Below are positions 5,360-55,854 of a stretch of 64,000 nucleotides of DNA, one piece after another; the first letter of the stretch is position 1; the number at the start of each line of letters is the position of its first letter. A program made the position numbers and the translations under genes. This stretch comes from Gemmatimonadota bacterium. GTDB taxonomy: Bacteria; Gemmatimonadota; Gemmatimonadetes; Gemmatimonadales; Gemmatimonadaceae. The DNA is taken from NCBI GenBank assembly GCA_021324775.1, contig JAJPIM010000024.1, forward strand, positions 124,001-188,000, given 5' to 3'. Below the pieces are notes generated by a model that saw nothing but the letters and a program-made list of their open reading frames with translations, had not been told where the DNA came from and did no database searches.

Positions 5360-5431
5360 ATGTGGCAGAAGCCCGAGTTCGAAGTGGTGGAAGTGACGAT
5401 GGAAGTCACGGCATACGTCGCCCGCCGCTAA
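5360..5431 (+). CDS. pqqA: PqqA, precursor peptide of pyrroloquinoline quinone
   Basis: A 23-residue peptide that is the ribosomal precursor of PQQ. It begins MWQKPEFE and ends TAYVARR, and contains the invariant ExxxY pair as E15-V-T-A-Y19; PqqE with PqqD joins these two side chains and the cofactor is built from them. The preceding residues repeat the motif (EVTMEVTAY), so E11 is a second glutamate in a similar setting. Too short for most gene finders, but confirmed by pqqBCDE directly downstream and a GAGG ribosome-binding site 7 nt before the ATG. A strong hairpin follows, which fits high expression of pqqA over the rest of the unit. Confidence 0.95.
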   Translation: MWQKPEFEVVEVTMEVTAYVARR

Positions 5432-5441
5432 GATCTGAATG

Positions 5442-5467
5442 AAGGGCCCGCAGTTGCGGGCCCTTTT
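5442..5467 (+). terminator. Intrinsic terminator/attenuator after pqqA
   Basis: A G+C-rich stem (GGGCCCGCA pairing with TGCGGGCCC, 2-nt turn) followed by TTTT lies 10 nt after the pqqA stop and about 55 nt before pqqB. Partial termination here would yield more pqqA mRNA than pqqBCDE mRNA, as known for other pqq operons. Confidence 0.85.
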
Positions 5468-5521
5468 CACATCGTGGGGGGCCGATGGCGGCGGAGAAAT
5501 GTTGATGTCACCCCCCGGACC

Positions 5522-6436
5522 ATGCAGATAATTCTCCTCGGCACCGCCGCTGGGGGCGCGGTCCCCCAGTGGAATTGCTGGTGCCCCACGTGCCGCACCG
5601 CGCGCGCGGATCCCGCGCGCGTCCACCCGCGGTCGCAGTCGTCCGTCGCGGTCAGCCCCGACGGCGTCCGGTGGTTCCTGATCAACGCATCGCCTGACGT
5701 GCGCCACCAGTTGGCCCGGCTCGCCGGACAGGGTCCAGCCGGCGACGGCGTCCGGCACGTCCCCATCGAAGCCGTGGTGCTGACGGATGCCGAGCTCGAT
5801 CACTCATTGGGGATCGTCTTGCTCCGCGAATCGCGGACGCTCGCGGTCTATGCGACCGGCGCCACCGCACGCATTCTCGAGCACGATTCCCGTGTGCTCC
5901 CGACAACACGGGCGTTCGCCACGGTAACCGTCTCGCCACTCCTGATCGGCGAGCCCGTGCCGCTACGGGACCGCACCGGCTCACCCTCGGGGCTCACCGC
6001 CGAAGCGTTTGTCGTCGCAGGCGACGCGCCGCGCTTCGCCACTGACGAATCCCCGGGACACACGATCGGCCTCGTGATCCGCGATACCGCTACCGGCGGC
6101 TCGCTCGCCTACGTCCCCGGGTGCGGCGAGATCGATGAGGCGCTGGTCAACCGGCTCCGTGGAGCGGACGCTGTCCTGTTCGACGGCACGTTCTGGCAGG
6201 ACGACGAGCTCGGCGCGCTCGGCATCTCGGCCATCTCCGCACGCGGGATGGGCCACGTGCCGATCAGTGGCTCCGGCGGCAGCCTCGCCATGCTGGCGAC
6301 GCTACCTGCCCGCGTGCGCGTCTACACACACATCAACAACTCGAATCCCATTCTGGCCGAGGACTCCGCTGCCCGGGCCGCCGTCAACGCCGCGGGCGTC
6401 GTGGTCGGTGACGACGGCATGACGTTCACGGCCTGA
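5522..6436 (+). CDS. pqqB: PqqB, PQQ biosynthesis metallo-hydrolase-fold protein
   Basis: 304 residues of the PqqB family, a metallo-beta-lactamase-fold protein acting in the late part of PQQ synthesis (oxidation of the tyrosine-derived part of the cross-linked precursor). It starts MQIILLGTAAGGAVPQWNC with the zinc-site cysteines WCPTC. TDAELDHSLGI, VPGCGE, GMGHVPISG and HINNSNPI are characteristic blocks. The ATG at 5522 gives the normal length; no strong ribosome-binding site is visible. The stop codon is inside a 14-bp tandem repeat (6420-6457). Confidence 0.95.
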   Translation: MQIILLGTAAGGAVPQWNCWCPTCRTARADPARVHPRSQSSVAVSPDGVRWFLINASPDVRHQLARLAGQGPAGDGVRHVPIEAVVLTDAELDHSLGIVLLRESRTLAVYATGATARILEHDSRVLPTTRAFATVTVSPLLIGEPVPLRDRTGSPSGLTAEAFVVAGDAPRFATDESPGHTIGLVIRDTATGGSLAYVPGCGEIDEALVNRLRGADAVLFDGTFWQDDELGALGISAISARGMGHVPISGSGGSLAMLATLPARVRVYTHINNSNPILAEDSAARAAVNAAGVVVGDDGMTFTA

Positions 6437-6457
6437 CGTTCACGGCCTGACGTCCAC
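6420..6457. repeat. 14-bp tandem repeat spanning the pqqB stop codon
   Basis: TGACGTTCACGGCC occurs twice in tandem (6420-6433 and 6434-6447), followed by a third, partial copy TGACGTCCAC. The first copy encodes the end of PqqB; the second begins with its TGA stop. The 14-bp period shifts frame. Confidence 0.85.
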
Positions 6458-6460
6458 CGT

Positions 6461-6489
6461 GTTGCCCCCGCAGGTGACGTGCGGGCAAC
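6461..6489. other. Hairpin in the pqqB-pqqC gap
   Basis: GTTGCCC(CC)GCA and TGCGGGCAAC pair with a 2-nt bulge and a 7-nt loop, in the 144-bp gap between pqqB and pqqC. No T-run follows, so it is more likely an RNA processing or stability element than a terminator. A TAGATT hexamer at about 6552 could be an internal -10 for pqqC. Confidence 0.35.
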
Positions 6490-6580
6490 GTGTGGGGCAA
6501 GGTGTGGGTGCCGCCACTTGCCGCCGGAGTGTGGGCCCGTTTGGAGGACGTTAGATTGCGGAGCGTCCTTCGAGGGTTTC

Positions 6581-7333
6581 ATGGCATCTAGCGTCGCCGC
6601 TGCGTCCGCACTGTCGGCTCCCCCGCCGCCCCCGCTTCCGGCCCTGGACCGGCCGCTGTCCGCGCCCGAGCTCGCCGATGCGCTCCGCGCATTCCACAGC
6701 TCGTATTACGCGGTGCATCCGTTCCACCAGTTGATGCGCGAAGGAGCCCTCACCAGGCGGCAGTTGCAGGGCTGGGTCGCCAACCGGCTCGCCTATCAGC
6801 GCGCCGTCCCGCGAAAGGATGGCGCTATCCTCTCCAACTGTCCGGACCCTGACGTGCGACGCCAGTGGATCCAGCGAATCGTCGACCACGACGGCCTGGA
6901 GCCCGGGACCGGCGGCATCGAGCGGTGGATCCAGTTAGGCGAAGCACTCGGCGTCCCTCGCGAAGAGATGGAGGACGAACGGCACGTGCTCCCCGGCGTA
7001 CGGATGGCGGCCGAATCGTATGTCACGTTCTGCAAGACGCATTGGTGGGTCGAGGCGGTCGCGAGCTCGCTCACCGAGCTGTTCGCTCCGTCGCTCATGC
7101 ACGAGCGCCTCGCGGCGTTCCCGAAATACTACCCGTGGGTCGATGCGGCAGGACTGGAGTATTTCCGGTCGAGGCTCGTCCAGGCCCCGCGCGATAGCTC
7201 CCAGGCGCTCGCGATCGTCGGAGCGCACTGCACGACGGTGGGGACCCAGCGGCTCGCGTTCGACGCGCTCCGGTTCAAGATCGAAATGTTGTGGGTGATG
7301 ATCGACACCATTTATCACGCCTACACCGGCTGA
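6581..7333 (+). CDS. pqqC: PqqC, pyrroloquinoline-quinone synthase
   Basis: Cofactorless oxidase catalysing the final ring closure and eight-electron oxidation to PQQ. 250 residues, normal for PqqC. The all-helical core has the conserved HPFHQLMREGALTRRQLQGW block and the YQRAVPRKDGAILSNCPD segment, then RIVDHDG and TFCKTHWWVEAVASSLTE. The final helix RFKIEMLWVMIDTIYHAY closes the active site. The first ~25 residues are Ala/Pro-rich and not family core. The ATG at 6581 is chosen because the 6479-6580 stretch gives no family residues. pqqD starts 25 bp downstream. Confidence 0.96.
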   Translation: MASSVAAASALSAPPPPPLPALDRPLSAPELADALRAFHSSYYAVHPFHQLMREGALTRRQLQGWVANRLAYQRAVPRKDGAILSNCPDPDVRRQWIQRIVDHDGLEPGTGGIERWIQLGEALGVPREEMEDERHVLPGVRMAAESYVTFCKTHWWVEAVASSLTELFAPSLMHERLAAFPKYYPWVDAAGLEYFRSRLVQAPRDSSQALAIVGAHCTTVGTQRLAFDALRFKIEMLWVMIDTIYHAYTG

Positions 7334-7358
7334 TGCGCCGCCGGTGGTCCTTGCGATC

Positions 7359-7628
7359 ATGATGCCATTGACTGCTCGCCCGCGCCTGTGGCGTCTGGCC
7401 CGGCTGGAATTCGATCCGGTCCGCAACCGGCGCGTGCTGTTGTATCCCGAAGGCGCCATGCTGCTCAACGACACCGGCGGTGAGGTACTCGCGCTCTGTG
7501 ACGGCACTCGGACCGTCGCGGATATCGGCGCCGAGCTCGGCACCAAGTACAACGCCGACGTGACCACGGACGTCGCCACGTATCTGGCGAAACTCGCCGA
7601 GCGGGAATTGGTGCACGATGCCCAGTGA
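7359..7628 (+). CDS. pqqD: PqqD, PqqA-binding chaperone
   Basis: 89-residue RiPP precursor recognition protein that presents PqqA to the radical SAM enzyme PqqE. The core reads RLEFDPVRNRRVLLYPEG, LNDTGGEVLALCDGTRTV and a C-terminal helix YLAKLAERELV, all typical of PqqD. Two adjacent ATGs (7359, 7362) are the likely starts; a GTG at 7344 is also in frame. It overlaps pqqE by 11 nt, so the two partners are translationally coupled. Confidence 0.95.
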   Translation: MMPLTARPRLWRLARLEFDPVRNRRVLLYPEGAMLLNDTGGEVLALCDGTRTVADIGAELGTKYNADVTTDVATYLAKLAERELVHDAQ

Positions 7629-8754
7629 AACGTTGCAGGCCCCGACGACGCTGCTGGCGGAGATCACGCATCGCTGCCCGCTGCACTGCCCCTACTGCTC
7701 GAACCCGCTCGATCTGCAGCGCGCGGAGGCCGAGTTGTCGGCCGATGAGTGGAAGCGGGTCTTCTCCGAGGCTCGGGCGCTGGGCGTCCTGCAACTCGGC
7801 CTGTCGGGCGGCGAGCCGCTCCTACGCAAGGATCTCGAGACGCTCGTAGACCACGCGCGGCGGACGGGGCTCTATACCACGCTCGTCACGTCCGGGCTGG
7901 GACTCACCAGGGAACGGGCGCTCCGGCTCCGCGACGCCGGCATCGATCACGTACAGATTTCGTTTCAGGATTCTGATCGCGCGAACGCCGAGCGGATCGC
8001 CGGCATCACGTCGGTGGACAAGAAAGTGGCCGCTGCGGCGCTCGTGCGGGAAATGGGCGTCGCCTTCAGCGTGAACGTCGTCCTGCATCGCGGCAACCTG
8101 GATCATATCGGCGAGATCATCGAGCTCGCGGCGTCGCTCGGCGCGGACCGGCTGGAATTGGCCAACACCCAGTACTACGGATGGGCCACGCTCAATCGCG
8201 ATGCGCTCATGCCAACGCGCGCCCAGCTCGACGCCGCTGAGCCGGTCGTGGACGCCGCGGTCGCGCGCTATCGCGGGAAGATGCAGATCATCTACGTGCT
8301 GCCGGACTACTACAGCCAGTATCCCAAGGCCTGCTACGGCGGTTGGGGCAGCGTGTACATCGTGCTCGGCCCCGATGGGCGGGTCCTGCCATGTCACGCC
8401 GCGACGCAGATCACGTCGCTCTCGTTCGACACGGTGCGCGATCATTCTCTCGAGTGGATCTGGCGTGATTCGCCTGGGTTCCGCGCGTTCCGCGGCGACG
8501 ACTGGATGCGTGAGCCGTGCCGCAGCTGTCCCCGCAAGACCGTGGATTTCGGCGGATGCCGGTGCCAGGCGTTTCTCCTCACCGGCGATGCCCGCAACAC
8601 GGACCCAGTCTGCAGCCTGAGTCCCAACCGTCACATGATCGACGAAGCGCTCGCCGTCGCGGCCGGCATCGACGCGGTTCCCGCATACACGTATCGCACC
8701 ATGCCGCCCGCGACTGCGGCCGCTGCTCGCGTCAAGGCCGCGATCGGTGACTGA
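7618..8754 (+). CDS. pqqE: PqqE, radical SAM PqqA cross-linking enzyme
   Basis: 378-residue radical SAM/SPASM enzyme that forms the C-C bond between Glu and Tyr of PqqA. The SAM cluster ligands are C20, C24 and C27 (CPLHCPYC), followed by the LSGGEPLLRKDLE glycine motif. The SPASM domain supplies auxiliary-cluster cysteines in KACYGGWGSVYIV, VLPCHAA, CRSCPRKT, GGCRCQAF and DPVC. Length and order match PqqE. No pqqF-type protease lies in the unit; the PqqA leader would be removed by an unlinked peptidase. bioF begins 57 bp downstream on the same strand. Confidence 0.97.
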   Translation: MPSETLQAPTTLLAEITHRCPLHCPYCSNPLDLQRAEAELSADEWKRVFSEARALGVLQLGLSGGEPLLRKDLETLVDHARRTGLYTTLVTSGLGLTRERALRLRDAGIDHVQISFQDSDRANAERIAGITSVDKKVAAAALVREMGVAFSVNVVLHRGNLDHIGEIIELAASLGADRLELANTQYYGWATLNRDALMPTRAQLDAAEPVVDAAVARYRGKMQIIYVLPDYYSQYPKACYGGWGSVYIVLGPDGRVLPCHAATQITSLSFDTVRDHSLEWIWRDSPGFRAFRGDDWMREPCRSCPRKTVDFGGCRCQAFLLTGDARNTDPVCSLSPNRHMIDEALAVAAGIDAVPAYTYRTMPPATAAAARVKAAIGD

Positions 8755-47228: not shown

Positions 47229-48377
47229 ATGCGCATGCTCGTTCTGGGGCGTGGGCTGCAAGGCTCGGCCTGCGCCTACGATCTCCTGCAGAATCCCGAG
47301 GTGACCGAGGTCCGGGTCGCCGACCTTCACGTGGATCACCTGCCGGAATTTCTCGCGCCCTATTCCGGGCGGAGGCTCATTCCCACCCGGCTCGATGTCC
47401 GCGACGCGGCGGCGGCCGGCGCCGTCATGCGCGAATGCGACGCCGTGATGAGCGCGATCCCGTACTACTTCAACTTCGAGATGGCGCGTCTCGCCGTCGA
47501 AGCAGGCGTGCACTTCTGCGACCTTGGCGGCAACACCGAAATCGTGTTTCAGCAGAAGGAACTCGGCGACCGCGCACGGCTCGCGGGAGTGACCGTGATC
47601 CCCGACTGCGGCCTCGCACCGGGGATGGTCAACATTCTCGCCCAGTACGGTATCTCGCAACTCGATCAAGTCGAGAGTGTGAAGATCTTCGTGGGCGGCC
47701 TCCCACAGCATCCCGAGCCGCCGCTCAACTATCAGATCGTGTATTCGCTGGAAGGTGTCCTCGACTACTACACGACGCTGTCGTGGGTGCTCCGCGATGG
47801 CAAGCGGCATCAGGTCAAGGCGCTGTCGGAACGCGAGGCGGTCTCGTTCCCGGCGCCGGTCGGGATGCTGGAGGCATTTCACACCGCGGGCGGTCTCTCC
47901 ACGCTGGCTTTCCGGTACGAAGGGAAGATCCCGACGATGGAGTACAAGACGCTCCGCTACCCGGGCCACGCGCACATCATGGAGGCGATCCGCGACCTCG
48001 GGCTCCTTGACCTCACACCCGTCGATGTCAAGGGAATGAAGGTCATCCCGCGTGAGGTCGTCGTCGGCGTCGTCGGGCCGCGCCTCACCAAGCCGCACGG
48101 CAAGGATCTGGTGGCGCTCCGCGTCATCGTCGAAGGCACCAGAGCCGGGGCGCCGGCCCGGATCGGATGGGAGCTGCTCGACTACTTCGATGGCGCCCGC
48201 GGCATCAGCGCCATGGAGCGCACCACCGGATACTCCCTCTCGATCACAGGGCAGATGCAGGCGCGCGGGGAAATCACACCCGCCGGCGTGTACACGCCTG
48301 ATGAATGCATCCCGGCGGCCCGCTACATCGCCGAGCTCGCAAAGCGCGGCGTCAACATCCGGGAGATGAAGAGCTGA
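47229..48377 (+). CDS. L-lysine 6-dehydrogenase-like protein (saccharopine dehydrogenase fold)
   Basis: 382 residues. Rossmann motif MLVLGRGLQGSACAYDLLQN, then VMSAIPYYFNFEMARLAVEA, FCDLGGNTEIV, IPDCGLAPGMVNILAQYGIS and VGGLPQHPEPPLNYQIVYSL. These blocks resemble, from memory, the NAD-dependent L-lysine 6-dehydrogenase of Geobacillus more than saccharopine reductases (C-terminal TTGYSLSITGQMQARG, GVYTPDECIP). It would oxidise lysine at C6 to a semialdehyde/piperideine carboxylate. Assignment depends on similarity recall. Confidence 0.8.
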   Translation: MRMLVLGRGLQGSACAYDLLQNPEVTEVRVADLHVDHLPEFLAPYSGRRLIPTRLDVRDAAAAGAVMRECDAVMSAIPYYFNFEMARLAVEAGVHFCDLGGNTEIVFQQKELGDRARLAGVTVIPDCGLAPGMVNILAQYGISQLDQVESVKIFVGGLPQHPEPPLNYQIVYSLEGVLDYYTTLSWVLRDGKRHQVKALSEREAVSFPAPVGMLEAFHTAGGLSTLAFRYEGKIPTMEYKTLRYPGHAHIMEAIRDLGLLDLTPVDVKGMKVIPREVVVGVVGPRLTKPHGKDLVALRVIVEGTRAGAPARIGWELLDYFDGARGISAMERTTGYSLSITGQMQARGEITPAGVYTPDECIPAARYIAELAKRGVNIREMKS

Positions 48378-48433: not shown

Positions 48434-48478
48434 TGGCAATACGTCCGCCAGCCATACATCCGCTAGCGATACACCCGA
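48434..48478. repeat. Degenerate 15-bp triple repeat at the 3' end of the PQQ dehydrogenase gene
   Basis: TGGCAATACGTCCGC, CAGCCATACATCCGC and TAGCGATACACCCGA in tandem. The last copy contains the gene's stop codon and final codons (minus strand); the others lie just downstream, as if the gene end had been duplicated and decayed. Confidence 0.6.
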
Positions 48479-49635
48479 TAGACCGCTCCCAGTTGGTCGT
48501 CGGTGATCAGCAGCGACCCGTCCGCGCCGACCATCACGTCGGCGACGCGGCCCCACCGGCTGCCGTCGGGACGCTGCCATCCCGTGATGAAGTCGTCGTA
48601 CGACTGTGGCTGGCCATTCGCGATGTGCACCCGAATGATCTTGTCGCCCGTCGGCACGTCGCGATTCCACGATCCGTGGCTCGCGACCAGCGCATCGCCG
48701 CGCATCGCCGGGGGCAGCACCGTCGCCCGGTCGAGGAACGTGATGCCGAGCAGCGCGGAATGCGCCTGCACATTGAGGGCGGGAACGGTCATTGACGCGC
48801 ACTTCGACGCATCGTGAAACTCGGGGCTCGCGTGTCGGTCGCCCCAGCAGTAGGGCCATCCATAGAATCCGCCGGCCTGGATGATGTTGATCTTGTCGGG
48901 CGGCAGGTTCTGGTGATCGGGCTCGAGGTTGTCGCGTTCGTTCACCGTGACCCAGATCCGCTTGGTCGCGGGATCGACCGCCACGCCGACGGCGTTGCGA
49001 AGGCCCGATGCGAAAATCCGCCCGTTGGCGCCGTTCTCGTCGAACCGCATCACCGTCGCGCGCGTCGAATCGCGCTCGACGCAGACGTTGCACGACGAGC
49101 CGTCGGAGACGTACATCGCGCTGTCCGGCCCGAACACGATGGTGCGCGTCGAATGCCCGCTTCCGCCGCCATAGTGATTCACGTAGACGGGTGATCCGGT
49201 GGGAACGCCCCGTGCATCGAGTCCGAACCGCACCACGCCGTCGTTGTTCGCCACGTAGAAATACCGCTTGTGAAACGCCATCCCGTGCGGTTCGTTCAAT
49301 CCCTGGGCGATCACGGTCTGGCTGTCGGGCACGCCGGCGCTATTGAACGCGTGGAGCCGGACGATGTTTCCGCGCTGGGTGGCGGAGACATACACGGACC
49401 CATCTGCGCCGAGCACCGTCCAGCGCGCCGCAGGCACGTGCGCGAAGTATTGCGCCTTGAGTCCCGCCGGCAGCGTCAGTTGCCGCTGCAGGTCCGCGTC
49501 GGTGGCTGGCTGCGCCGCTGTACGTGATGGCGCACAGGCCGTGATCAGGCTGGCAAGCGCGCCCGCCACCGCGAGCAGACACGGGCTCCGGCGCGGACTC
49601 GTCCGGACAGCGTTCACGTCATGTGGATCTTGCAC
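48463..49635 (-). CDS. PQQ-dependent sugar dehydrogenase-type lipoprotein (L-sorbosone dehydrogenase family)
   Basis: 390 residues. Lipoprotein signal LLAVAGALASLITAC. A six-bladed beta-propeller of the soluble GDH/Asd/sorbosone dehydrogenase family follows: LPAGLKAQYFAHVPAARWTV, GLNEPHGMAFHKRYFYVANN, GLRNAVGVAVDP, WPYCWGDRHASPEFHD, and FVASHGSWNRD-like LVASHGSWNRDVPTGDKI. It should oxidise an aldose or aldehyde sugar in the periplasm using PQQ, which this organism can make (5360-8754). Located 1 nt after the plug protein gene; GTG start. Confidence 0.88.
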   Translation of the reverse strand: MQDPHDVNAVRTSPRRSPCLLAVAGALASLITACAPSRTAAQPATDADLQRQLTLPAGLKAQYFAHVPAARWTVLGADGSVYVSATQRGNIVRLHAFNSAGVPDSQTVIAQGLNEPHGMAFHKRYFYVANNDGVVRFGLDARGVPTGSPVYVNHYGGGSGHSTRTIVFGPDSAMYVSDGSSCNVCVERDSTRATVMRFDENGANGRIFASGLRNAVGVAVDPATKRIWVTVNERDNLEPDHQNLPPDKINIIQAGGFYGWPYCWGDRHASPEFHDASKCASMTVPALNVQAHSALLGITFLDRATVLPPAMRGDALVASHGSWNRDVPTGDKIIRVHIANGQPQSYDDFITGWQRPDGSRWGRVADVMVGADGSLLITDDQLGAVYRVYR

Positions 49636-51225
49636 TCATCCTCCGACTCGGGTCTTCGTCCAGATCACTACCACGGCGCAGTCCGATTGCCCGCTGGCCT
49701 GGAATTGCGGGGGAGCCTCGGACGGCTGGTACACCTCGACCGCCGCGACTTCGTCGGGATGCATGTAATCGTTGAAATCGCCCTGCATCGGAGTCGGCAC
49801 GCCGTCGATGACGTAGGTCAGGCACGTGCCGCCGGCGCCTCGCGAGCCCCTGAGCTGCGGCTGTCCGGACGAGTAGTCGATCGTCAGCCCTGGAACGGTC
49901 GTGAAGATGTCCGTCATCTGCGTGGGCAGCTTTTCCGCGATCTGATCTTCCGTCAGGTAGCGGCCAAGTCCGGACTTCTGCCGCTGCGTGAATCCGACGT
50001 TGCGCAGCCCCTTCTCCCGCTTGCCTTCGACCTGGACCGGGGTCAGCGTCGGTGGTGCAGGAAGCATTTTGACGTCCGTGCGGTGTGGCGCTCGTGCCGA
50101 CAGGTCGACGGTCACCTGCATCGGCGCGAAGCTCAGCTTCCGGATCTGCAGCGCCTGCGTTCCGGACGGCAGTCCGCGCAGCGTATAGGTGCCGCTGTCG
50201 CTCGTCGTCGTCGTGGGCGCGGCACCCGCTACGGACAGCTCCGCGCCAGCCAGTGGCTTGCCCGTCGGGTCGGTCACTCGCCCTTCGACCACCGCACGCC
50301 CCGTCCTCAACGCCACGGTGCGAGGCTTCGCCGCTGCCGGGGTTGTGCCTGCCGGTGCCGACGCGCTCGCCGTGACGGCCGTGTCGGGCGACGGGACGTG
50401 CAGCATCGCGATGGTGACGAGCTCGCCCTGGTTGGAAATCGGAACATCGGCCGTCGCGAGACCTCCCCGTGATGCCCGCACGGAGCCCTGCACGCTCGCC
50501 GGCGTCCCGCACAGGCGATACGTGCCGCTGGAATCCACCGTGGCCTCACGCACGCGTGGCGCACGGTGCACGCCGGTCGCGGCGCTCACTTCGAGTTCGG
50601 TCCAGTAGAGCACCACACGTGCTCCCGTCGCCGGTGCATCCGTATCGGCGTCGAGGACCCGGCCGATCACCGCGGCGGGGCCGGTGAGCCGCTTGTCGGG
50701 CGGACAAAAGAGATTCAGCACTGTGGACTGTGACGGCGTCGACATCCGCACGACGGCATACCGCGCCAACGGCATGGCGATCGGCTGCGTCTCGATGGCC
50801 AGGCCGATCGAATCCAGCAGCGGATGCGAGAGTTGCAGTTTGTATTCGCCGGGCAGGATGCTGTCGATGCGGAATTGCCCGAGCGAATCCGTGACGCCTT
50901 CGCGCTTCCCGCCGACGACGATGACAGTGGCGTCTCGGAGCGGACCGCCGTGGATGCTGTCGATGGCGACACCGATGACGCCCGAGAAGTGGTGTGTCGT
51001 GTCCGGGAGTGGCTGTTTCGCGGCGGCCGGCGCCGCCTTGCCCTTGGTTTTGCTCGCCGGCGGCGCGGGCGGCGCCGCCTGCTGCGCCACGACGCGCGCG
51101 GCCGCAAACGGCGCGACGGCCACGCCGGCGCCCATCCCGAGCCCGATTGCGAACGTGCTGCCGGCCACGAGACCGGCAAATGATCTCCGCGCGCGCCTGG
51201 GCGCACGGCTTCCGGGTGCAGTCAT
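49636..51225 (-). CDS. Carboxypeptidase-regulatory-domain protein with TonB-receptor plug, no barrel
   Basis: 529 residues. Signal peptide (FAGLVAGSTFAIGLGMGAG...VVAQ), a Pro/Ala/Lys linker, then three carboxypeptidase-regulatory-like beta sandwiches (GVIGVAIDSIHGGPLRDATV; GRVLDADTDAPATGARVVLY; GRVTDPTGKPLAGAELSVAG). The C-terminal ~120 residues are a TonB plug (LPTQMTDIFTTVPGLTIDYS, GGTCLTYVIDGVPTPMQGDF). The 500-600-residue beta barrel of a real receptor is missing. It is coupled to the kinase gene (ATGA) and followed by the PQQ dehydrogenase. Confidence 0.85.
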   Translation of the reverse strand: MTAPGSRAPRRARRSFAGLVAGSTFAIGLGMGAGVAVAPFAAARVVAQQAAPPAPPASKTKGKAAPAAAKQPLPDTTHHFSGVIGVAIDSIHGGPLRDATVIVVGGKREGVTDSLGQFRIDSILPGEYKLQLSHPLLDSIGLAIETQPIAMPLARYAVVRMSTPSQSTVLNLFCPPDKRLTGPAAVIGRVLDADTDAPATGARVVLYWTELEVSAATGVHRAPRVREATVDSSGTYRLCGTPASVQGSVRASRGGLATADVPISNQGELVTIAMLHVPSPDTAVTASASAPAGTTPAAAKPRTVALRTGRAVVEGRVTDPTGKPLAGAELSVAGAAPTTTTSDSGTYTLRGLPSGTQALQIRKLSFAPMQVTVDLSARAPHRTDVKMLPAPPTLTPVQVEGKREKGLRNVGFTQRQKSGLGRYLTEDQIAEKLPTQMTDIFTTVPGLTIDYSSGQPQLRGSRGAGGTCLTYVIDGVPTPMQGDFNDYMHPDEVAAVEVYQPSEAPPQFQASGQSDCAVVVIWTKTRVGG

Positions 51226-52421
51226 CCGAACCATCGCTTCAACGCCGCGGTCGTGGTGCCCAGGCCGCCCGGCCGGGTCGCCGCCTCGAGGGCGACGGCG
51301 AAATCGGGCGCCGTAGGGTACCGGTCATTGGGGTCGCGCTCGAGCGCTTTCAGTAGTACCCGCTCGACGGCACTTGGGAAATCTAGGTCGGGGCGCAGCT
51401 TCCGGAGCGGCGTCGGCTGGTGCCTCAGCCGCGCGATCATCAGCTCCTGTTGCGACTTGCCCGTGAAGGGCAACGACCCGGTAAGCATCTCGACGGTCAT
51501 CAAGGCCAGCGAGTACACATCGGTCCGCCCGTCGAGCGCCTTGCCGCGTAGTTGCTCGGGGCTCATGAACTCCGGCGTCCCGAGCACGATGCCGGTCGCG
51601 GTCAGCCGCTCCAGTTCGGGACCCGCCTTCCGCTCCTTCGCGAGACCGAAATCCATCACCACGGCATGGTCGCGGTCATCGGCCCGCCGGACGATCATGA
51701 CGTTTTCGGGCTTGAGATCCCGGTGCACGATCTGGTGATCGTGTGCGGCCTGGAGTCCGGCGGCAATCTCCGCCACGAAGCCGACGACATCATCGAGCGG
51801 GAGCTGCCCGAACCGATATGTCCGGTCAGCCAGAATCTCGCCCGCGAGGTACGGCATCACGAGATACACGAGTCCATTCGCCGTCTGGCCGAGGCACTCG
51901 ATATGGCAGACGTTCGGATGCACCAACTTCCCCGCCATCTCCGCTTCCCGCCGCAACCGGGTCATGGCGGTCGTATCCTTGGACAGCGACGGGGACAGCA
52001 CTTTGATCGCATGCTGCGTCTCGGCCCCCGTGTCGGTCGCCAGATACACGATCGACATGCCGCCCTCGCCCAGCTTCCGCTCGACCTTGTAGCGTCCGTC
52101 GAGGAGTTGGCCGATGAGGGTCGCATGCGCCGGAACGGATGCCGGTGTCAGCTTTCCTTTTTTGAACGCCGGACCCTGGCCGGTGGGCAGCGCCCGCGGG
52201 GGCCCCTTCGAACGCGATGCGGTCCCGGGCGAATACCGCGGCGATGGCGGCCGCAGAGGCGTCGGCAGTGCGACGGGCGATCCGCCCGGCGATCCACCTG
52301 CCGGCGCGCCCGGTGCCGGCGCGGCTGCTTCCGCCTCCGCCACAAGCTTCGCGCCGTCCCGCGGGCAGAAACGGGTCGTGCCGCCGTAGGTGACGCCACA
52401 AGTGGGGCAGCGCAGGCTCAT
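51222..52421 (-). CDS. Serine/threonine protein kinase with N-terminal zinc ribbon
   Basis: 399 residues. A rubredoxin-like zinc ribbon (RCPTCGVTYGGTTRFCPRDG) opens the protein, then ~75 Pro/Gly-rich residues, then a Hanks-type kinase domain from about 108: GRYKVERKLGEGGMSIVYLA (P-loop), HAIKVLS (Lys), IVHRDLKPENVMIV (catalytic loop), VMDFGLAKE (DFG), GTPEFMSPEQL. No transmembrane helix, so it is cytoplasmic. It heads the kinase - plug protein - PQQ dehydrogenase unit; TAGATT lies 9 nt before its ATG. Confidence 0.95.
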   Translation of the reverse strand: MSLRCPTCGVTYGGTTRFCPRDGAKLVAEAEAAAPAPGAPAGGSPGGSPVALPTPLRPPSPRYSPGTASRSKGPPRALPTGQGPAFKKGKLTPASVPAHATLIGQLLDGRYKVERKLGEGGMSIVYLATDTGAETQHAIKVLSPSLSKDTTAMTRLRREAEMAGKLVHPNVCHIECLGQTANGLVYLVMPYLAGEILADRTYRFGQLPLDDVVGFVAEIAAGLQAAHDHQIVHRDLKPENVMIVRRADDRDHAVVMDFGLAKERKAGPELERLTATGIVLGTPEFMSPEQLRGKALDGRTDVYSLALMTVEMLTGSLPFTGKSQQELMIARLRHQPTPLRKLRPDLDFPSAVERVLLKALERDPNDRYPTAPDFAVALEAATRPGGLGTTTAALKRWFG

Positions 52422-52430
52422 CGCCCCGTT

Positions 52431-52436
52431 AATCTA
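52431..52436 (-). promoter_or_regulatory. -10-like hexamer TAGATT of the kinase gene
   Basis: TAGATT, then AACGGGGCG, then ATG at 52421 on the minus strand: 9-nt spacing as for RNase D. Confidence 0.5.
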
Positions 52437-52464: not shown

Positions 52465-54099
52465 CTAGGACCTCACCCGGTTCCGTCCTTCCGCCTTGGC
52501 GCGATACAGCGCGGCATCGGCCTGCCCGAACAGATCCTCGGCCGAATCGACCCGGGGTCCCGGGAATGTCGCGACACCGATACTCGCGGTGAGGCGGAGA
52601 CCGGTGCCTTCATTCCCCGGTGCCCCGATGACGGCGAACATCTGCGCCTCGATCCGCTCGCGGATGCGTTCCGCGAACGCGACCGCACCGCCCTCCGCCG
52701 TCTCCGGCAGCACGACCACGAATTCCTCGCCGCCGTAACGGGCGACGACGTCCACGCTGCGGACCGCGTGCTGCAGCAGCGCGGCCACTTCGCGCAGCGC
52801 GTCGTCGCCGGTGAGGTGTCCGTAGGTGTCGTTCACCCGCTTGAAGTGATCGAGATCGATCATCAGCAGTGTCACCACCGAGCTATAGCGCCGCGCCCGG
52901 TCCAGTTCGGACGCGAGCCGCAGGGTGAGGGCGCGGCGGTTGAGCACCTGGGTCAACGGGTCGGTGTGCGCCAACGCTTCCAGCCGCGCGTTGTCCGCGC
53001 GGGTCATCTCGATCACCTGCGCCCGCTGGATGGTCGCCACGGCCGCGCGAATCACGGTGTCCGCGAATTCCACGTCCTCCGGTGTGAGCAACGGCTCATC
53101 GGCCGAGCGCCGCAGGAAGAACACGCCGGCCTGAGCCCGGTCGAGCGAGAACGGCAACGCGATCACCGAGCGGATCGACACCACCACGCCATCCCGCAGC
53201 CACGACTCGCGCACGCGGTCGTACAGCGGGCTCGTACGGAGGTCCTCGATCAGCACCGGCGTACCGCCATCGAGCGCGGCGCGCACTTCGGGATAACGGT
53301 CCAGCGTGATCTCGAGGTTGCGGATCGCGGGATTCTCGAAGGCCGCGGCGACGAGTCCGCGCTCGTCACCCGGTCGCGCGAGGATCACCGAGCAATGCGA
53401 GATGTCGAGCGCCCTCGCGACGCGGCGCGCCACGATATGGTAGATCTCATCGGAGGACAGGTCGCCGGTGACTTCGTGCAGGATGTCCACGAGTTTCCGG
53501 CGGCTTTCGGCGTCGTCGCGGGCGCGCTGGAGCTCGACGTCCTTGGTGCGCAGCTCTTCCCGCGCGGCCACGAGCGCGGCCCGGACTCGCAATTGCGCCT
53601 GGATGCGCGCCAGCAGCTCGCGCACTCGCACCGGCTTGCGCACGAAGTCGGCGGCACCGAGACCAAGGGTCCGGACGGCTGCTTCATCCGGCGGGAGCGA
53701 CGACACCATGAGGACCGGCAGGTCGCGCCAGCGGTCGTCGGACTTGATCCGCTCGAGAGTCTGATAGTTGTCAGAACCCGGCATCGCGACATCGAGCAGC
53801 AGGAGATCCGGCGCATCGCGCTCCAGCCGTTCGAACAGCGCATGGCCATCCGCGGCGGCGCTCACGTCGTAGCCCTGCTCCTTGAGCACCCAGGCCACCG
53901 TCTGCAGCACGGCCGGGTCGTCGTCGGCGACCAGGATGCGGGTATTCGCGATCACCGTCCGCGTCTCCGATGCGATGGGGATCGCGGCCGCGCGTTCGGA
54001 GTGCGCGAGTGCCGCGCCTCCGCCGGCGAATGCCCCGCGCGGCGGATCGCCGTTCTCCGCCAGTGACGATGATCCGGCCCCCAGGGGGAGCGGTTCCAC
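52465..54099 (-). CDS. Response regulator - GAF - GGDEF diguanylate cyclase
   Basis: 544 residues. Receiver domain (about 55-170): ILVADDDPAVLQTVAWVLKE, phospho-acceptor in LLLLDVAMPGSDNY, FVRKPVRVRELL. A GAF-like domain follows (LSSDEIYHIVARRVARALDI to AVATIQRAQVIEM), then GGDEF at the end: LMIDLDHFKRVNDTYGHLTG and ARYGGEEFVVVLPE. The RxxD inhibitory site is present as RSVD five residues before GGEEF. Makes c-di-GMP. GTG start, 10 bp after the second diguanylate cyclase gene; SD GAGG. Confidence 0.93.
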   Translation of the reverse strand: MEPLPLGAGSSSLAENGDPPRGAFAGGGAALAHSERAAAIPIASETRTVIANTRILVADDDPAVLQTVAWVLKEQGYDVSAAADGHALFERLERDAPDLLLLDVAMPGSDNYQTLERIKSDDRWRDLPVLMVSSLPPDEAAVRTLGLGAADFVRKPVRVRELLARIQAQLRVRAALVAAREELRTKDVELQRARDDAESRRKLVDILHEVTGDLSSDEIYHIVARRVARALDISHCSVILARPGDERGLVAAAFENPAIRNLEITLDRYPEVRAALDGGTPVLIEDLRTSPLYDRVRESWLRDGVVVSIRSVIALPFSLDRAQAGVFFLRRSADEPLLTPEDVEFADTVIRAAVATIQRAQVIEMTRADNARLEALAHTDPLTQVLNRRALTLRLASELDRARRYSSVVTLLMIDLDHFKRVNDTYGHLTGDDALREVAALLQHAVRSVDVVARYGGEEFVVVLPETAEGGAVAFAERIRERIEAQMFAVIGAPGNEGTGLRLTASIGVATFPGPRVDSAEDLFGQADAALYRAKAEGRNRVRS

Positions 54100-54109
54100 G
54101 ATGCCTGCC

Positions 54110-55312
54110 TCACGCGCTGATACGGTTCCGCCCAGCCGACTTGGCGCGGTACAGATTGCGATCCGCCGCCGCGAGCAGCGCCGCGGGCGACAGCTCGCCG
54201 ATCTCCGGCGCGACCATCACGCCTACCGAAATCGTCACCGGCAGCGACTGCCCATGGCCCCCGAACACATGGTCGTCCACGTTGCACCGCAAGCGCTCGG
54301 CAAACGACGTCGCGCCCTGCGTGCCGGTGTCCGGTAGCACGAGGATGAACTCGTCGCCGCCGAGTCGCGCCACGGCATCGGTGTCACGGGCGGTTTCGTT
54401 CAAGATGTCGGCCACGGTCTGGAGGACGTAGTCGCCGAATGGATGCCCAAAGGTGTCGTTGATCGATTTGAAATGATCGACGTCGATCGCCAGGACCGAC
54501 AGGGGCGTCCCGCGCCGCCGCGCCTGGCGGCACTCGCGCGCCAGCCGCGTCTCGAGCGCGCGCCGGTTGAGACACTCGGTCAGCGGATCCGTTCCGATCA
54601 ACTCGATGAGCCGGTGCCGCATGTCGTCGACGCTCCGCGCCAGCAGCGTGAGATCATCGGGACGGCGGTCCGCGCCCGCGCCCAGCGGGGTGCCCAGCTC
54701 GCCGGCTTCGACGTCGCGGCACAACCGGCGCAGTGCGTTCATCCGCGACCGGAAACTGCCGAACGCGAACACCAGCGTGCTCCCCGCGAAGAGAAACATC
54801 GCCGAGTACGTCACGATCGCCCAACCGTCGGCTGGTGGCCCGGGCCGGACGGGAGCGACGAAGAGCGAACCCACGATGTATGTGGCAAGTGTCGACAGCA
54901 GCCCCCACACCGCGAACGAAAGCCCGTAGTACACGACCGCGAGTTGCGCGGCCACCAGCCCCAAGATGAGCAATCGATCGTAGTCGCGCACCGCCGCCGT
55001 GAGGTACACGACACTCGCGGCCGCAATCAGGTCGGCCGAGAACACGAGCGCGAGCAGGGGCCGCGGCACGCCGTCCGACGGCGTCCTCCGCAGGTGCCAC
55101 GAGATCGCCGCGATTGAGCCCGCATAGGCCAGGGCCACGCCGGCGAGCGCCAACCACTGGTGGGCATCAGTACCTGAAAAGCGTTGCACCGCCGCAGCGC
55201 CCAATGTGAGCGCCGCCGCCACATATCGCGCCCAGCTTTGCCACAGTAGCACCTGCCGCTCCGCTCCGATGGCGGCCACTTTGTCCGAAATCCGTCGGGG
55301 TGGATCGTTCAC
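54110..55312 (-). CDS. Membrane diguanylate cyclase (GGDEF)
   Basis: 400 residues from GTG 55312, which has GGAG 6 nt upstream. Six or more hydrophobic segments (ARYVAAALTLGAAAV, WLALAGVALAYAGSIAAISW, LLALVFSADLIAAASVVYLT, LLILGLVAAQLAVVYYGLSF, AMFLFAGSTLVFAFG) form a membrane input domain, then a HAMP-like linker, then GGDEF: LAIDVDHFKSINDTFGHPFG and ARLGGDEFILVLPD, with RDTD as the I-site. The frame is open upstream to an ATG at 55600 with no family residues. Upstream partner of the receiver-GAF-GGDEF gene. Confidence 0.9.
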   Translation of the reverse strand: MNDPPRRISDKVAAIGAERQVLLWQSWARYVAAALTLGAAAVQRFSGTDAHQWLALAGVALAYAGSIAAISWHLRRTPSDGVPRPLLALVFSADLIAAASVVYLTAAVRDYDRLLILGLVAAQLAVVYYGLSFAVWGLLSTLATYIVGSLFVAPVRPGPPADGWAIVTYSAMFLFAGSTLVFAFGSFRSRMNALRRLCRDVEAGELGTPLGAGADRRPDDLTLLARSVDDMRHRLIELIGTDPLTECLNRRALETRLARECRQARRRGTPLSVLAIDVDHFKSINDTFGHPFGDYVLQTVADILNETARDTDAVARLGGDEFILVLPDTGTQGATSFAERLRCNVDDHVFGGHGQSLPVTISVGVMVAPEIGELSPAALLAAADRNLYRAKSAGRNRISA

Positions 55313-55854
55313 GGGCCACTCCGTGGCGCCGCCGGCCGGATGAGGCGCGCCCGCGGCGACGTCACAGAGGGCTGGCACGGCGGGGGCCGTGGCCGGGCCC
55401 ACCCCGATCTCCTCGCCAGGCGCGTGCCTGGAGGGCAGATCCGCGCATCCCGCCCGAAGGTCCGGGTGCGTCTCCCGATGGATATCGGGGGGCACCCGCA
55501 CGATCTTCGACCGGCGGACGCCTGGAATCTCGCCGGGGACGCCTGCCGGGCGCCCAGCGGGCGTCGTGGGATAGAGCGGCGTGATACCAGTGAGGTCCAT
55601 GAGCTCCGATCTGTCGGTACGAACAGGCGAACCGGTGGTGAGTCGTCGTCTGGTTGGTCGTCGTCCGGACTCGCCCAGATGCGACCCGGAGCCTGCCAGC
55701 GCATGAACCTCGAGGTTAGGCATTCCTAACCCGGGGTCTTCACGGCACAGGGTAAAGCAAGAAGCGAGCTCATCACGCTAAACATACGGTGCGCCGCCGA
55801 GAAACATTGGTCGCAAGCACGTTGCGACGGTCCTTGACGATCGGGCCCGTAAAC
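55313..55854. other. Region upstream of the diguanylate cyclase
   Basis: About 540 bp, no confident gene. The cyclase frame extends in it to 55600 (ATG with GGAG 3 nt before) and further to 55723. A GGTTAGG/CCTAACC hairpin with a CATT loop lies at 55714-55731. Nothing else recognised. Confidence 0.35.

Follow-up and report, generated by a model that had tools for sequence, protein, structure and literature searches.

A family of exported TonB-type plug domains without a barrel and with a conserved cysteine pair in Gemmatimonadota

The window analysed here (the whole stretch of 64,000 nucleotides) encodes an exported protein in which three carboxypeptidase-regulatory domains are followed by a complete TonB-type plug domain, with the polypeptide ending at the last strand of the plug. 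A profile built from 51 plug regions detected the family of this barrel-less plug in 91 of 121 genomes sampled across Gemmatimonadota, with up to 20 matches per genome. Plugs are regarded as channel parts, and no description of a barrel-less plug family or of stand-alone plugs was found in the open-access literature, subscription papers lying outside that search. The reading preferred here, to which an even chance is given, is that of a soluble, disulfide-stapled plug, which would bind TonB in the periplasm and act as an adaptor or regulator.

The plug gene is the middle member of a trio on the minus strand, preceded by a Ser/Thr kinase gene and followed by a dehydrogenase gene, all head to tail and without gaps (Table 1). 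Its start lies at position 51225 or, alternatively, at an in-frame ATG at 51234. The coordinates, the order and the ATGA coupling given for these genes in a preliminary description proved correct, and the genus of the window keeps the overlap (TTCGGATGA) in each of its three species. On the other hand, the dehydrogenase does not begin 1 nt after the plug gene, as that description had it, but with a GTG at 49635, immediately 3′ of the plug-gene stop (end at 49636; a gap of 0 nt). Comparison with the orthologues of palsa_1248 gave dN/dS values of 0.12 for the kinase, 0.16 for the plug gene and 0.17 for the dehydrogenase. Purifying selection acts on all three genes, and the trio is not a product of chance.

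Table 1. Features of the kinase-plug-dehydrogenase locus and its surroundings, in positions of the window.
Feature	Position	Strand	Basis
Second GGDEF protein, member of the conserved neighbourhood	54110..55723	-	Pfam; neighbourhood comparison
Response-regulator/GAF/GGDEF protein, member of the conserved neighbourhood	52465..54099	-	Pfam; neighbourhood comparison
Ser/Thr protein kinase, PknB/Stk1-like, 399 aa	51222..52421	-	Pfam PF00069, 2.9e-44; HRDLKPEN and DFG in translation
N-terminal zinc-ribbon-like motif CPTC...CPRD	52356..52409	-	Read from sequence; Pfam Zn_ribbon_NUD below cut-off
Kinase domain, residues 111-368	about 51318-52091	-	Pfam PF00069
ATGA overlap, kinase stop/plug-gene start	51222..51225	-	TTCGGATGA in window, G001 and G002
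Exported barrel-less plug protein, 529-532 aa	49636..51234	-	ORF translation, Pfam, family conservation
Probable signal peptide, RRARRSFAGLVAGSTFAIGLGMGAGVAV..., end approximate	51087..51225	-	Read from translation
CarboxypepD_reg domain 1 (approximate)	50755..50991	-	Pfam stretch; limits from low-confidence model strands
CarboxypepD_reg domain 2 (approximate)	50395..50676	-	Pfam stretch; limits from low-confidence model strands
CarboxypepD_reg domain 3, residues 316-390	50065..50289	-	Best Pfam stretch
TonB-box-like strand LTPVQVEG, residues 397-404	50023..50046	-	Alignment of 69 members
Plug domain with last strand VVVIWTK, residues 405-527	49654..50022	-	Pfam, profile, Foldseek
Pfam Plug match, residues 427-505 of 532	49720-49956	-	Pfam PF07715
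Cys471, conserved plug cysteine 1	49822..49824	-	69/69 members
Gln503, where barrel plugs have Lys/Arg after IE(V/I)L	49726..49728	-	Alignment with barrel plugs
Cys519, conserved plug cysteine 2, in C..VVIWTK	49678..49680	-	69/69 members
Glucose/sorbosone dehydrogenase-like lipoprotein, 390 aa; GSDH residues 161-386	48463..49635	-	Pfam PF07995, 5.1e-16
Dehydrogenase lipobox LITAC	49534-49548	-	Translation
Saccharopine dehydrogenase-like gene, last member of the conserved neighbourhood	47229..48377	+	Pfam; neighbourhood comparison

Pfam recognised CarboxypepD_reg in three stretches of the plug protein (E 5.3e-31) and Plug (PF07715, E 1.3e-7) with 32.5 bits against a gathering threshold of 23.9, which confirms the make-up initially described, with three carboxypeptidase-regulatory domains, a TonB-type plug and no barrel. 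Among solved structures (PDB), the family profile matched the plugs of PirA, BtuB and CirA with E values of about 1e-4. AlphaFold models from three alignment rows, the kind of structure prediction proposed for the C-terminal region, were of low confidence (mean pLDDT 48.8 for the full protein and 45.6 for the plug alone, with the distance between the cysteines not readable), yet the first 45 PDB matches of the plug-alone model in Foldseek were all TonB-dependent receptors. Since Pfam, the comparison of the profile with solved plugs and Foldseek agree, the domain is a genuine and complete plug, and both the anatomy of the protein and its family assignment are well supported. The 22-strand barrel of TonB-dependent transporters is absent, as the protein stops a few residues past the plug, in agreement with the early remark that a plug of this kind cannot be a channel by itself.

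The full-length protein as a query found relatives in all 60 genomes of the order. From genes called around the matches in about 30 of these genomes, 69 members were aligned, with the second plug cysteine as part of the selection pattern. The median member length is 515 aa, and every aligned member ends at most 21 residues (median 6) past CxxxxW(T/S), none of the 69 continuing into a barrel. Several paralogues score under the Pfam threshold for Plug. In a tree of plugs with and without barrels, the branch separating both groups received an SH-aLRT support of 100 (a quick tree of 138 columns with a short search and limited detail). This separate clade argues for a single origin of the barrel-less plugs, which appears reasonably supported, and against repeated recent truncation. 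In a scan of named organisms, the close relatives belonged to the Gemmatimonadetes MAGs palsa_1248 and fen_1251, together with one distant match in Bacteroidota. Among 99 genomes of another phylum, that of Mesoflavibacter, two short-frame matches alone stood out. One of them, a barrel-less plug of 189 aa (L191), ends in GGVILIWTKH, with GG replacing CG and without the Cys pair, a similar ending which indicates that some plugs of this kind do without the cysteine staple. At L032, L048, L078, L084, L088 and L089, between two and four barrel-less plug genes stand in tandem, some of them being fragmentary.

Regarding the cysteines themselves, Cys471 is present in 69 of 69 members at a site that played no part in selecting them, and Cys519, also in 69 of 69 but within the selection pattern, occurs as well in every complete member of the unfiltered list. 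Twenty barrel-borne plugs in the genome of the window have no cysteine. Cys471 and Cys519 would probably form a disulfide within the plug. A second difference affects the Lys/Arg that follows IE(V/I)L, which is found in 18 of the 20 barrel plugs and in 4 of the 69 barrel-less ones, being lost in the other 65 (Fisher p 4e-13, calculated on rows that are not independent), so most of the family lacks this conserved basic residue, the putative plug-to-barrel anchor. From its motif, the lost position would correspond to R133 of FhuA, which together with R93 is one of the conserved plug arginines predicted to make salt bridges to the barrel (PMC11658791). In addition, the isolated plug of FepA is reported to act like an unfolded protein, and engineered intraplug disulfides to block transport (PMC11658791). 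A plug that is stapled and devoid of the barrel-contact residue would thus fit a role different from transport.

A strand with the box-like pattern L..V.V.(A/G) precedes the plug in 58 of the 69 members, reading LTPVQVEG in the window protein and, for instance, LDPVVVTA elsewhere in the family, and its positions L397 (91%), V400 (81%) and V402 (84%) are conserved across the alignment; the strand may also be, simply, the last one of the CarboxypepD_reg domain. Moreover, a sister protein (L071, 9265-10488) carries CarboxypepD_reg (1.7e-13), Plug (1.5e-8) and TonB_C (3.5e-13) in a single chain according to Pfam. When it served as the query, matches spanning all three parts (counted as such if they extended to at least position 395) occurred in about 55 of the 118 genomes searched in the taxonomic family. 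The fused forms examined keep both cysteines and make up one clade inside the family. By eye, these fusions show no obvious membrane anchor of the TonB type apart from the signal peptide. The genome of the window has seven TonB_C matches and no full-span fusion, the C10 copy having only a weak TonB_2 match (0.0041).

Box-like strands and fusions of this kind suggest that the plug protein binds TonB, and the periplasm would be its most likely location and that of its role as an adaptor. In the proposed mechanism, the protein would be exported with its three transthyretin-like CarboxypepD_reg domains, the box strand and the complete plug, whose Cys-pair disulfide would let it fold, and remain folded, without a barrel. 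The C-terminal domain of TonB would then add onto the box strand. The stack of domains would not form part of a pore but serve as an adaptor, competitor or regulator, either holding other exported proteins or competing for them. The main rival is a scaffold independent of TonB, where the plug fold would have been reused as a stable, disulfide-bonded binding or structural domain, periplasmic or at the surface, and the box strand would be a part of CarboxypepD_reg. This explanation accommodates the large and diverged paralogue family with its changing neighbours, the repeated TTR-like domains and the Cys pair, as well as a TonB link drawn from sequence only, but the widespread natural fusion to TonB_C and a strand like known TonB boxes in 58 of the 69 members speak against it, and it is considered less likely.

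The genes flanking the plug gene were also characterized. The upstream one, previously presented as a zinc-ribbon kinase, is indeed a kinase, but its ribbon is not a full one, with three Cys and one Asp and a Zn_ribbon_NUD match under the Pfam cut-off (E 0.0085). Pfam detected neither a second annotated domain nor a sensor domain in it, and the PASTA kinase model NF033483 is matched by the kinase part alone, with 270.6 bits against a threshold of 450 and no PASTA domains. The downstream gene had been described as a PQQ-type sugar dehydrogenase lipoprotein, and its GSDH domain (PF07995, 59.3 bits against a threshold of 25) and its lipobox identify it as a lipoprotein of the glucose/sorbosone dehydrogenase family, with a putative dependence on PQQ. 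Genes of PQQ biosynthesis are found on the plus strand of the window at 5361-8754 (a pqqA-like peptide, MWQKPEFEVVEVTMEVTAYVARR, and pqqB, pqqC and pqqE), followed by bioF and bioA. Their presence suggests that the genome can probably make the PQQ cofactor of the dehydrogenase, from genes located 40 kb away.

The search for the same three-gene order in relatives found it in three genomes, all of the genus of the window, and not in other genera. A six-frame search revealed no plug gene at 20 kinase/dehydrogenase loci from other genera of the order (L154-L173), which were collected with dehydrogenase and kinase queries. The older order runs through gyrA, a PALP enzyme, GGDEF, the kinase, a variable insert, the dehydrogenase, a variable insert and the saccharopine dehydrogenase-like gene, with some loci lacking some of the genes. 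The insert between kinase and dehydrogenase can be an amidohydrolase, an E1 dehydrogenase or a peptidase M1, and in one genome (G011) the kinase directly adjoins the dehydrogenase. In the nearest other genus (G009), an orthologue of the plug gene occupies the same locus, from gyrA to the saccharopine dehydrogenase-like gene, beside DPP-IV and with the kinase and the dehydrogenase absent. Because the kinase and the dehydrogenase occur without the plug, and the G009 plug without them, the three-gene coupling shows no shared task. The trio is a late, genus-level arrangement, in which kinase and dehydrogenase are neighbours of the plug by history and not parts of a dedicated system, and the sugar-sensing or uptake system initially suggested finds no support in these comparisons.

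The same data bear on the periplasmic ligand sensor raised at the outset, considered here in a more specific, kinase-linked form. Its plug would recognise a sugar, or the product of that sugar's oxidation, and signal to the kinase co-transcribed with it, and the PQQ dehydrogenase would act as the effector. The ATGA coupling kept in three species and the PQQ genes of the genome would agree with such a sensor; however, the confinement of the trio to one genus, the lack of a kinase sensor domain in Pfam, the kinase and dehydrogenase without a plug elsewhere, the G009 orthologue without either of them and the different neighbours of the paralogues make it improbable.

A further option was a split receptor, in which the plug would be exported separately and dock into a barrel made elsewhere. 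The TonB-receptor barrel model PF00593 matches 14 places in the genome of the window, and Pfam sees a plug in the same frame in 13 of them. The 14th (L176, G000:C37:182812-183876) is a 905-aa TonB-dependent receptor with a plug that is readable in the translation and missed by the Pfam model. The search for barrel-only proteins in the genome therefore gave none among the 14 PF00593 matches, which cover PF00593 barrels only. Plug homology, and one barrel-less member (L091) that precedes a full TonB-dependent receptor gene, speak for docking, but every PF00593 barrel of the genome owns a plug, the Lys/Arg matched to a barrel contact is usually lost, and three N-terminal domains plus an internal Cys pair would hamper insertion, all of which renders a split receptor improbable. 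Finally, the idea that the protein is left over from a receptor truncated recently, with only the absent barrel in its favour, can practically be dismissed, given the clean end throughout a large family, the common Cys pair, the separate clade and the purifying selection. The relatives checked showed no full receptor and no sign of recent truncation.

Turning back to the preferred TonB-binding adaptor, the genes next to members of the family as a whole form a varied set, with many housekeeping genes, and do not indicate a single function. Among 36 close same-strand neighbours, DPPIV_N and PD40 appear six times each, and neither is in the 25 commonest families of a background of 84 more distant genes from the same loci, a comparison that was set after the pattern was seen and where several loci are orthologous. 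This surplus of exported beta-propeller neighbours (DPP-IV, PD40, Vps10/sortilin, GSDH) is taken as a lead only. In each of the three species of the genus, a further plug paralogue (L031, L055 and L058) is flanked by a beta-ketoacyl synthase gene on one side and a DPP-IV gene on the other. As a broader and rather doubtful proposal, Gemmatimonadota might use an entire class of soluble stapled plugs, some of them fused to a TonB domain of their own, to link the force or availability of TonB to exported proteins other than transporters, among which might be the beta-propeller enzymes encoded beside several of the plugs. If true, a phylum-wide set of barrel-less plugs with a Cys pair and TonB_C fusions would mean that the TonB-plug pair is usable outside transport. 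Such barrel-less plugs would also offer soluble proteins for measuring the interaction between TonB and plug without a membrane.

The window protein shares with the plugs of TonB-dependent transporters (PF07715; BtuB, CirA, PirA, SusC/RagA) the plug fold and a preceding strand similar to the TonB box and, with SusC/Oar-type receptors, a CarboxypepD_reg domain before the plug, whereas its family lacks the barrel, has an invariant Cys pair, has lost the Lys/Arg and ends at the last plug strand. With respect to proteins with the TonB C-terminal domain (PF03544), sister members of the family carry TonB_C after the plug, which the window protein does not. The signalling receptors FecA and FpvA likewise combine a plug with an N-terminal periplasmic module, but the window protein has no barrel, and Pfam showed neither an STN domain in it nor sigma/anti-sigma genes among its window neighbours. 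As for the glucose/sorbosone dehydrogenases of PF07995 (soluble PQQ sugar dehydrogenases, TrAA12), the third gene of the trio encodes a lipoprotein member, whose gene accompanies that of the kinase throughout the order and that of the plug solely in this genus.
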